Below, in pieces: positions 1 to 8,240 of a stretch of DNA of 10,762 nt. Source of the DNA: a bacterium (GTDB lineage Bacteria; UBA9089; JASEGY01); NCBI GenBank assembly GCA_030019105.1, contig JASEGY010000086.1:1-10762 (forward strand), in the 5' to 3' direction. Made by a program: the position numbers and the translations under genes. Below the pieces are notes generated by a model. That model ran no database searches. It was not told the DNA's origin and saw nothing but the letters and a program-made list of their open reading frames with translations. Position 1 is the stretch's first letter; each line of letters opens with the position of its first letter.

Positions 1-150
1 CCTACCTTGCCAACCTATTGTGTTTCAAAAGCTTCGGCTTAACTTAATGGCAGTGACGCAGAGCGTAGGGACGAGGGGGAATATTACCCCTCGAATCCGC
101 CTTGACCCAAATATTCTTAGCTTTTATGCGTTAAAGATGAGGTGATAAAG
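1..150. other. Gene-free left edge with small hairpins
   Basis: I see no convincing coding region here. Two short inverted repeats are visible: AAGC-TTCG-GCTT at 29-40, and an imperfect 22-bp palindrome at 72-93 with arms CGAGGGG and CCCCTCG around a central AATATT. Neither is followed by a clear T-run, so I do not call a terminator. The last bases (139-146, GAGGTGAT) form the ribosome binding site of the disrupted small ORF that follows. Confidence 0.5.
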
Positions 151-463
151 ATGTCTGTTAAAGAAAAACCAATTACGGGGACGGTTCATAATCTACAATT
201 TTACTGTGAAAACTTGTGGATTGAATATCGAATATCGAATAAAGAATTTAGAATTATGAAGTCTTGTTCCCCTTTTTCCTTCGACATTCATTATTCCTTG
301 TTCGATATTCGATATTTTACTCAGCCGCAAGCTTTCACAGTAAGGTGAACCATCCCCAATTACGGTAAATGGTAATACTTTCAACAATTGGGCAAATGTG
401 ATGAATCTCGAAGACAGCAAAATACTTATTCACATCTGCAGTCAGGAAAGAGATGGAAGATAA
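151..463 (+). pseudogene. Small leader ORF split by a fold-back element (41 codons when restored)
   Basis: An ATG at 151 follows GAGGTGAT (139-146), a near-perfect Shine-Dalgarno sequence at good spacing. The reading frame runs MSVKEKPIT and then enters the inserted element at 178, where it ends at an unrelated TGA (346-348). Removing the element (178-356) and one copy of the 8-bp duplication joins codons 151-177 to 365-463. This gives 41 uninterrupted codons, continuing VNGNTFNNWANVM and ending CSQERDGR. The stop TAA at 461-463 overlaps the ATG of the downstream transporter (TAATG). I do not recognise the family. The start signal, intact frame and coupled stop suggest this was a real small gene, perhaps a leader peptide or small partner of the transporter. 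Because the element plus duplication is 187 bp, not a multiple of three, the frame is broken today. The restored frame is read directly; the function is unknown. Confidence 0.6.
178..356 (+). mobile_element. Fold-back MITE-like element, copy 1
   Basis: This is a 179-bp non-coding element with ends GGGACGGTTCA (178-188) and TGAACCATCCC (346-356), inverted with 10 of 11 matches. An inner inverted pair follows: TACTGTGAAAACTTGTGG (202-219) against CCGCAAGCTTTCACAGTA (325-342), 16 of 18. A central inverted pair has 15 identical bases (225-239 against 301-315), so the whole element can fold into one long hairpin. It is flanked by a perfect 8-bp direct repeat, CAATTACG, at 170-177 and 357-364, the signature of transpositional insertion. 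It encodes no transposase and must depend on one elsewhere. Eight-base duplications occur in families such as ISL3, IS66, IS256 and IS1595; I cannot say which. It interrupts a small ORF. The right-hand 34 bp (323-356) are identical to copy 2. Confidence 0.82.
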
Positions 464-5242: not shown

Positions 5243-6196
5243 TTAAAAAGTCACCACTTCTGCCCAGGAGTATATCCGGCGACAGCTCTCTTCCTCCGAC
5301 TTTGACATCCAGCCGGTAGGAAGAGACGGCCTCTTCTTGCCTAAGCGCTCCCACTTGGAAAGACCTAACGGGTTGTAAGGCAGGAGAGAACATTTCTTGA
5401 TCCCATTCTCTTTAAGGAAGTCCGAGATACCGGTTAAGTTTTCCTTCGAGGTGGTAAATCCCGGCACCAGGGGAATGCGGGGTGTCACCTCAATATCCTC
5501 TTTCAATAGTTGCCGGAAGTTCTCCAGGATCTTTTGATTATCCCGGCCGGTGTGTTGAAGATGGGTTTTGCGATCGATGATCTTGAGATCATACATAACC
5601 AGGTCAAGCCAGGGGAGTATCTCTTCCTTAAAGGCAGGGTACTCAAAGCAGCCGCAGGTCTGAATTGCGGTGTGAATGCCCTCTGATTTGATCCCCCTCA
5701 ACAGTTCCCCAGCGTAGGCCGGCCAGAGGGTTGGCTCCCCTCCGGACAAGGTTATTCCGCCTCCTGAGGTCTCGTAGAAGGCCCGATCGCGAAGGAGGAG
5801 TTCTAAAAGGGCCTCTGTCTCATAATATCTGCCTATCTGTCGGAGGCCCCTGCCGGGGCATACCCCGGTGCATTTCCCGCAACGAGTGCATCTTGAGCGG
5901 TCGATTCTTACCTCCGCCCCTTTGAGGATGGCCCCCGCCAGGCCGGCTCGGCCTGCCAGGCCGGCTCGGCCTGCCAGGCCGGCTCGGCCCTCCGGGCAGG
6001 CCTTTTCACAATCAAAGCAGCCGATACAATTTTGGGGGTAGAAGCCAATCTCAGGCTTAGGGTCTATTGCCTCCGGGTTCTGGCACCACTGGCAAGAGAG
6101 GGGACATCCCTTGAAGAAGACGGTCGTTCTTATCCCCGGCCCGTCCTCGGTAGAGCCCTTTTGCACATCCACGATAAGAGGAAAGCTCTCTGACAT
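5243..6196 (-). CDS. Glycyl radical enzyme activase (radical SAM)
   Basis: This 317-residue radical-SAM enzyme uses a [4Fe-4S] cluster and S-adenosylmethionine to abstract hydrogen from the conserved glycine of a partner glycyl radical enzyme. The SAM cluster motif is C31-PLS-C35-QW-C38, with SGGEP at 151-155 as the SAM-binding GGE motif. Two ferredoxin-type motifs follow the SAM cluster: C57, C60, C63, C67 and C103, C106, C109, C113. This layout is typical of activases for the dehydratase/decarboxylase-type enzymes rather than PFL-AE itself. Residues 71-88 are three copies of RAGLAG inserted in the linker; without them the text reads CPEG-AILKG, as in ordinary homologues. The likely target is the glycyl radical enzyme at 8242-10665. 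The gene starts 12 bases after the ATPase stop in A+T-rich sequence with no clear ribosome binding site, unlike its neighbours. Confidence 0.93.
   Translation of the reverse strand: MSESFPLIVDVQKGSTEDGPGIRTTVFFKGCPLSCQWCQNPEAIDPKPEIGFYPQNCIGCFDCEKACPEGRAGLAGRAGLAGRAGLAGAILKGAEVRIDRSRCTRCGKCTGVCPGRGLRQIGRYYETEALLELLLRDRAFYETSGGGITLSGGEPTLWPAYAGELLRGIKSEGIHTAIQTCGCFEYPAFKEEILPWLDLVMYDLKIIDRKTHLQHTGRDNQKILENFRQLLKEDIEVTPRIPLVPGFTTSKENLTGISDFLKENGIKKCSLLPYNPLGLSKWERLGKKRPSLPTGWMSKSEEESCRRIYSWAEVVTF
5937..5990 (-). repeat. In-frame 18-bp palindromic tandem repeat (3 units) inside the activase
   Basis: Three 18-bp units begin at 5937, 5955 and 5973; the third differs only in its last base. Each junction contains CAGGCCG-GCT-CGGCCTG, a perfect 7-bp stem. 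On the minus strand the array encodes RAGLAG three times, at residues 71-88 of the activase. Being 54 bp, it keeps the frame. It sits exactly between the two ferredoxin-like cluster motifs, a loop that can probably tolerate an insert. Confidence 0.9.
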
Positions 6197-7766: not shown

Positions 7767-8240
7767 TTATAAGAGCTTGAGCTGGAGGTGGTTAGCCAGG
7801 AATCCGAATCGGAAGATGTAGTTGAAGTTCCCTTCAAGGGCCACCTCGTTTTCTAAGATCGGCCTTAAGATGTCCCTGCGGCCATCACCACCACCCTTAG
7901 GAAGAAGAAAATTCATCAGGGCATCGGCATTCTTGAAGACAACGGTTGCATTTGGTGTGGCCTTCAACTTCTCGGTTGGCTTGAGCTCTTTTGCCTTAAG
8001 CCGGTTATCTTTGAATTCCGCCAGGACCCTTACCTCGTTGTCCTTGCTCCTGAACTGGATCAGGCCGTTGAAGCCCTCTATGTTCTTTCGCAGATTGCGG
8101 TCAAGGCAGAAGGAGAGGCTCATCAGCTTGAGCAAAATTTCCAGGAACTCCTCAGCCACTTCATCTCTCAGGCATTTCAGGAAGGCCCTTCTTGCGAGAT
8201 AACGCCAGATTCTTCGGACAGGATATAACAGCCAATCCAT
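7767..8240 (-). CDS. Small SCP2-like protein coupled to the glycyl radical enzyme
   Basis: This 157-residue protein has no confident family assignment. The C-terminal half (about 55-157) has the look of an SCP2-type sterol/lipid-binding domain: a beta-rich start (FNGLIQFRS, VRVLAEF), then ATVVFKNADALMNFLL, a helix, and NEVALEGNFNYIFRFGFLA, the usual 'expressed mass, then G-N' end of that fold. The N-terminus (1-25) is basic and aromatic (LLYPVRRIWRYLARRAF) and could touch the membrane surface. The ATG at 8240 follows the upstream stop codon by one base. A near-ideal ribosome binding site (AAAGGAGGTGA) lies inside the end of the upstream gene, so translation is coupled. The pairing suggests it serves the enzyme, for example by holding a hydrophobic substrate or product. 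That role is inference. Confidence 0.75.
   Translation of the reverse strand: MDWLLYPVRRIWRYLARRAFLKCLRDEVAEEFLEILLKLMSLSFCLDRNLRKNIEGFNGLIQFRSKDNEVRVLAEFKDNRLKAKELKPTEKLKATPNATVVFKNADALMNFLLPKGGGDGRRDILRPILENEVALEGNFNYIFRFGFLANHLQLKLL

Follow-up and report, generated by a model that had tools for sequence, protein, structure and literature searches.

Background

Bacterial non-autonomous DNA transposons of the MITE type, e.g. Chunjie of Geobacter uraniireducens and QMITE2 of Coxiella, are described in the available excerpt of a review (PMC10969869) as elements of less than 500 bp with short terminal inverted repeats and target duplications. According to the same excerpt (PMC10969869), they occur in tens of copies, form a stable stem-loop, are AT-rich, come in size variants and are mostly intergenic, although some are found in genes or operons. 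A second relevant system is ISCth4, a member of the IS256 family, for which the accessible part of the paper reports a transposase with a helical insertion domain that carries a C/DxxH motif, as well as A/T-rich 8-bp duplications; entry code 6xg8 appears in that paper (PMC7780238).

The element discussed here lies at positions 178-356 of a stretch of 10,762 nucleotides, which was analysed as a whole and is referred to as the window. It seems very likely (with a probability of roughly 0.93) that the element is a MITE of a large family in its own genome, which was moved in trans and left an 8-bp duplication. In a literature search by titles, the end sequence was found as text only in papers from other fields, and no paper on MITEs of such a lineage was found.

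Structure of the element

The element (forward strand, 179 bp, assigned below to subfamily A) has terminal inverted repeats GGGACGGTTCA / TGAACCATCCC, as follows from both reading the sequence and repeat searches, by which the inverted-end element of the original prediction was re-derived. It is flanked by CAATTACG, which reads identically at 170-177 (left) and 357-364 (right), so that the perfect 8-bp target duplication claimed earlier is exact. Between the ends, three parts can be distinguished: a left arm of about 44 bp (178-221), which has similar counterparts in MITE copies whose cores differ, as well as at the end of a transposase remnant on another contig (C191); a core (220-318; GAATATCGAATATCG...CGATATTCGATATT), i.e. 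a separate dispersed imperfect palindrome that also occurs outside these MITE ends; and a right arm of about 38 bp (319-356), which is largely common to subfamily B. Internal arms pair at 201-219 with 325-343 (89% complementary) and at 224-261 with 279-316 (79% complementary), and 170-364 folds as single-stranded DNA with a z of -10.3 (200 shuffles), in line with a stable stem-loop. The element is AT-rich, with a G+C content of 64/179 (36%). Two ORFs of at least 60 codons overlap it (68 and 75 codons), each of which starts or ends in the flanks.

The element is thus smaller than 500 bp with terminal inverted repeats, is flanked by a duplication, is dispersed in multiple copies and has no transposase gene of its own. 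It had been called a fold-back element, and it does indeed fold back on inverted arms, but MITE is the better name. Fold-back (FB) transposons are large eukaryotic elements with long repetitive termini; the present element resembles them in its long inverted arms that fold back, and differs from them in being a 179-bp bacterial element.

Copies and subfamilies

The genome to which the window belongs (4.34 Mb in 1053 contigs, 95% complete) contains the 11-base end GGGAYGGTTCA 201 times (102 forward and 99 reverse), compared to none for the reversed pattern used as a control. Among the best 40 of 127 candidates in this genome, 12 full or nearly full-length copies of subfamily A were found at 96-100% identity (178-356 included), besides many partial matches. 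Subfamily B (158 bp) gave at least 34 long matches at 87-100% identity among the best 40 of 383 candidates, 30 of which at 98-100%. One member of subfamily B lies within the window itself, at 1471-1628 on the forward strand (158 bp), with the same ends as subfamily A, another core, and an exact 8-bp duplication GATTTTGG to its left (1463-1470) and right (1629-1636). It begins just past the stop of the transporter gene discussed below, which is therefore situated between two MITEs. At 1648-1679 the window also holds an uninterrupted copy of a hairpin repeat, GAAACCAGGTTTCTTCAAGAAACCTGGTTTCT, other copies of which carry MITE insertions.

The cores are not confined to these elements. The subfamily A core (220-318) was found without its usual arms at all eight other places that were read; at two of these (L018 and L174) another element starts exactly at the core end, and the rest have differing flanks. 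Positions 52-115 of subfamily B have matches in 7 further places at 95%, and the one that was read is likewise without arms. Together, these arrangements could be read as cores having been swapped between shared ends, as an overall reading rather than a reconstruction step by step. A related element family with GGCATGGTTCAA ends was also observed (L181 1476-1628, L046 3237-3373, and near the core at L174), with an exact 8-bp duplication at the L181 copy and none at the L046 copy.

Within the phylum, the end motif was matched in 15 of 19 genomes. It occurs more than 20 times in seven of these (201, 104, 93, 44, 34, 28 and 22, versus 0-1 in controls), and 0-8 times in the rest of the 19 (controls 0-2). 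In the stretches examined from three relatives (G013, G018 and G011), there were 4 exact duplications, all in G013, and duplications with one mismatch numbered 3 in G013, 1 in G018 and 2 in G011; many ends were without any.

Target duplications and empty sites

Paired ends were collected from the own-genome stretches examined, at 90-260 bp apart and with at most one mismatch per end, without requiring a duplication; copies within 30 bases of the end of a stretch were dropped and duplicates were removed on the basis of the element plus 30-base flanks. Of the resulting 60 distinct pairs, 45 have identical 8-bp flanks, 2 differ by one base and 13 by two or more, which leaves 15 without an exact duplication. 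At least four of the 13 mismatched pairs (L003 1501-1756, L010 1433-1660, L029 1501-1719 and L167) apparently join the ends of nested or adjoining elements. The 8-bp flanks of different elements, on the other hand, agree in only 13 of 3540 comparisons (0.4%), and windows shifted outwards by 8 bp never agree (0 of 60), which means that the CAATTACG duplication is not due to chance. The 45 duplicated elements are mostly 158 bp (24) or 179 bp (10) long, the others being 155 bp (6), 157 bp (2), and 144, 153 and 202 bp (one each); the 153-bp element belongs to the related end family, since its ends are GGCATGG. By position, the duplication is roughly G/A-A-A-A-T/A-T/A-T-C/G, i.e. A/T-rich in the middle.

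For the reconstruction of empty sites, the 60-base flanks of the 45 copies were joined with one copy of the duplication and searched against all loci examined. An uninterrupted similar site that matches across the junction was found for 19 of the 45, with a best match of at least 60 bases in 14; the remaining junction matches are short. Several matches fall in low-complexity GAAATTGG-type repeats or are gapped near the junction, and one (L056) is in a relative only. Neither 178-356 nor 1471-1628 is among the 19. The matching sites are uninterrupted copies of repeats, from which it follows that the MITEs often reside inside other dispersed repeats. Three contig pairs (C259/C264, C68/C69 and C352/C354) were considered as strain variants with an empty site and rejected, since what the members of each pair have in common is limited to the MITE, its short flanks and some other short repeats. 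Viral contigs gave no match for the right end, the joined window site or the candidate transposase family described below.

After removal of the element, 10 of the 45 sites fall in an ORF of at least 100 codons, compared to 72% of positions drawn at random from 11 own-genome stretches (n = 4000), so that insertions in long ORFs are depleted. For two of the insertions that are in ORFs, the separate halves gave a DUF2283-like and an AbiEii-like match, in one half each and both below the Pfam cut-off.

The insertion of a mobile element at 178-356 is strongly supported, and the confidence of the original prediction on this point was justified, given the many copies, the exact 8-bp duplications and the paralogous empty sites. 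Direct observations on the family comprise shared ends, near-identical copies in large number, paralogous empty sites and duplications of exactly 8 bp. As for the mechanism, a transposase supplied in trans would recognise the ends of about 11 bp, and probably the adjoining arms too; the element would then be joined to a staggered, 8-bp-wide cut in A/T-rich DNA, and host repair would leave the 8-bp duplication. At this locus the MITE lies in the leader region of a CDF transporter gene, where it may have cut a frame of 41 codons.

The transporter leader and the interrupted frame

The CDF (cation efflux) transporter is encoded at 541-1437 on the forward strand if its start is taken from its closest relative, while an in-frame ATG at 463 is also possible. 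The relative in question (P0034, 86% identical) aligns with its first residue to residue 27, i.e. to window position 541, and 463-540 has a codon score of -0.17, which resembles non-coding sequence; nevertheless, the ATG at 463, which opens a His-rich MHIHRHPE, could be the true start. In frame between the two ATGs, at 501-540, a repeated sequence of the AACTCGAAACTCG type was seen by eye. The one same-genus genome examined had no match to the transporter at E <= 1e-20, and a search of the contigs with the transporter returned one distant match at 27% identity. Promoter-like and terminator-like sites in 1-1750 numbered 3 each, which is no excess over shuffled sequence (2.7 and 1.9, respectively), and one of the terminator-like sites is inside the second MITE. 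Further along the window, two observations on other genes were made: a tandem in-frame repeat (AGRAGL units, by eye) at 5940-6000 in a radical-SAM activating-enzyme-like gene, and an ORF of 157 amino acids without Pfam match at 7767-8240, next to a glycyl-radical-enzyme-like gene.

When the element and one copy of the duplication are removed, a frame of 41 codons is restored that runs from ATG 151 to a TAA at 461-463, just as had been claimed. As a possible gene, it would have its first 9 codons at 151-177 and the rest at 365-463, both on the forward strand; in its present form the frame runs into the MITE and stops at 346-348. That the insertion split a genuine small gene, translationally coupled to the transporter, is a tentative reading that is given slightly less than an even chance. 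It draws on the ribosome binding site, which was rightly called near-perfect: the Shine-Dalgarno-like ATGAGGTGAT at 137-146 (forward strand) matches AGGAGGTGAT in 9 of 10 positions and ends 4 nt before ATG 151. Such sites, with one mismatch or none and a well-placed ATG behind them, number 10 in the roughly 230 kb of own-genome stretches covered, versus 1.7 expected; 3 of these lead to frames of at least 100 codons, 4 (ATG 151 included) to frames of 41-99 codons, and 3 to shorter ones. If the motif is loosened to two mismatches, however, the excess is diluted (46 versus 28 expected). The length of the frame also counts to some extent in favour of a gene, as non-ORF sequence of 31-40% GC keeps a fixed frame open for 32 codons in 14% of cases (23% when all compositions are taken together), and as 15% of intergenic ATGs are open for 41 codons at that composition (20% overall), or 54 of 145 when they stand behind a loose ribosome motif. 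Finally, the last A of the TAA is the A of ATG 463, so that the TAATG overlap of the original prediction does exist; as the closest relative starts at 541, however, the overlap may not be with the start of the transporter.

An even chance is given to the other reading of the frame, in which the MITE landed in an ordinary non-coding leader and the 41 codons are a chance ORF. The same 15-20% of intergenic ATGs that stay open this long can be cited for it, as can the 35 of 45 family MITEs that are outside ORFs of at least 100 codons, and the 66% of 1120 random non-coding positions that are spanned by some ORF of at least 41 codons. Since the latter control counts all frames and all starts, it leans too far towards the null when the frame in question has a named start, and the statistics of ribosome site and open frame favour a small gene more than this control does; it is the ribosome site, matching better than expected by chance, that speaks against a chance ORF. 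The codon score of the restored frame (-0.057 per codon) is neutral, between that of genes and that of intergenic ORFs: scores this low are seen in 4% of the gene pieces (n = 550) and 13% of the gene starts (n = 110), and scores this high in 24% of the intergenic ORFs (n = 217). The search for homologues of the restored peptide, which had been put forward as a check, turned up no convincing one in proteins, Pfam, plasmids, phages or 19 genomes of the phylum. There was no relative by shared words among 5.8 billion proteins and nothing in Pfam, plasmids or phages, and the matches outside the locus in the 19 phylum genomes had E-values of 0.12, 0.17 and 0.64. Two of the phylum matches, when realigned alone, gave 30 residues at 37% identity (L080, E 5e-5) and 27 residues at 33% (L081, E 3e-4); these are not counted, although not disproved either, because each E-value refers to a single 3-kb subject, which had been selected as the best from 19 genomes, and because the alignments are inside much longer frames. 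The former gene, which had been called well supported, is therefore plausible in view of its ribosome site and open frame, but the neutral codon score and the lack of a convincing homologue make the restored frame weaker evidence for a gene than was claimed.

The hairpin could, in principle, also be a resident regulatory RNA of the transporter (an attenuator or a metal riboswitch) rather than an insertion. It is located upstream of a metal exporter and the RNA fold is strong (142-480, z = -7.2), yet this explanation is highly improbable, as the same sequence is present at a dozen sites with different duplications. Moreover, a search of the window with Rfam gave no family at its gathering score. 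All that 1-1700 matched with an E of 1 or less were four microRNA models, each of which fell far short of its gathering score (best E 0.011, 28 bits versus 211). As the origin of the hairpin a resident regulatory RNA is thereby refuted, whereas later co-option could still have taken place. In the preferred reading, i.e. that of an inserted MITE, any transcript reading through the element would acquire a strong hairpin, located between ATG 151 and the transporter.

Search for the mobilising transposase

Pairs of ends up to 5 kb apart were screened for duplications with no more than one mismatch, and all those that have one are 351 bp long or shorter. Pfam-family searches of the 19 phylum genomes gave matches to IS1595 in 3 (over the cut-off in 1), to Y1 in 10 (over the cut-off in 9) and to IS256 in 4, all of the latter being fragments or having inner stops. 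These genes were rejected as the autonomous partner, as no plus/minus pair of ends with at most one mismatch each was present at any of the 37 loci returned; with two mismatches allowed there were three pairs (L128, L137 and L157; 437-1054 bp), all without duplication (5-8 of 8 bases differing). Next to a piece of IS256-like transposase, at L161 1281-1495, inverted GGGACGGTGGTGTAGAAAG ends were observed around a broken frame that by eye looks like the start of a Y1-type transposase. Of the 37 ORFs of at least 90 codons that start no more than 700 bp behind an unpaired end (55 such ends), no two from different loci belong to the same family.

Outside the latter test, because it starts about 745 bp in, is an ORF on contig C191, where a decayed IS256-like transposase ORF is seen behind a MITE-like left arm (L048 698-2288). 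The arm (42-44 bp) is 83-84% identical to the MITE arms, and the transposase-like ORF (1543-698) begins about 745 bases inward of it, with an inverted-repeat insertion (arms 1642-1696 and 1836-1890) in between. A 147-bp repeat, other copies of which exist elsewhere, interrupts the 3' part, and the C191 copy ends before the Glu of the DDE-like set given below. Even at E-values up to 10, Pfam gave no match for the ORF, which scores 18.3 against IS256_N_4Cys (cut-off 27). It has 32 relatives of up to about 420 amino acids, found to be without precomputed Pfam domain; in an alignment of 10 of them (numbering of relative P0005), D120, D176 and D195-x-x-H198 are invariant and E323 is at least 90% conserved. 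Family searches gave weak IS256, IS66 and IS1 scores. Against NCBIfam transpos_IS256, the best of six relatives reached 26.5 bits, which is below the cut-off of 150, and against PF00872 one of the 6 is just over the cut-off (22 versus 21) and one just under it (20.9). In the PDB, the family has a single match with an E of 1 or less, to the Mutator family transposase 6xg8 (E 0.0065). The predicted model of P0005 has strands followed by helices at 194-309, at low confidence (mean pLDDT 56). The family has DDE-like residues and a DxxH motif, and its second Asp is followed by a stretch that is predicted to be helical; P0005 had no plasmid match.

The decayed IS256-like ORF is the best lead for the mobilising transposase, as a candidate with a putative link to the MITE ends. 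As C191 yielded no right end, the remnant may be a chance neighbour of the MITE-like arm. In addition, within the phylum the ORF is present only in the genome of the window (G000), apart from a 39-residue piece in G001, whereas five more genomes have abundant MITE ends; unless copies were lost or are missing from the assemblies, this disfavours the ORF as a partner serving the entire family. From the available features we infer a DDE transposase acting in trans, most likely of an IS256/Mutator-like class. A wider model is on the less probable side: one set of ends might have been fitted to several unrelated palindromic cores across this uncultured phylum, all moved in trans by an undescribed IS256/Mutator-like branch at or below the detection threshold of Pfam and NCBIfam, of which the copy in the own genome would be a decayed remnant only.

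Comparison with known systems

The locus documents a highly amplified MITE family in an uncultured lineage on replicate evidence, i.e. duplications and paralogous empty sites. It also provides a correction to over-reading, in that the loss of a gene is only weakly supported by a single short frame that is broken. If both the exchange of cores and the orphan IS256-like transposase are true, the family would offer a natural test of the end requirements of a transposase, as well as of how new MITEs arise by the capture of cores.

By the features listed in the excerpt of the review (PMC10969869), 178-356 is an ordinary bacterial MITE: its family agrees with those described there in size, ends, duplications, copy number, stem-loop, AT-richness, mostly intergenic sites with some in genes or operons, and size variants. 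Compared to Chunjie and QMITE2 as far as that excerpt portrays them, it differs in having several subfamilies with common ends and arms but different palindromic cores, and in that at least two of the cores also occur outside its MITEs. The 8-bp A/T-rich duplications of the MITEs are like those of the IS256/Mutator-like ISCth4 in the accessible part of its paper (PMC7780238). Unlike the IS256 family proper, however, the candidate transposase family falls below the NCBIfam IS256 cut-off, and its copy in the own genome is a decayed remnant.
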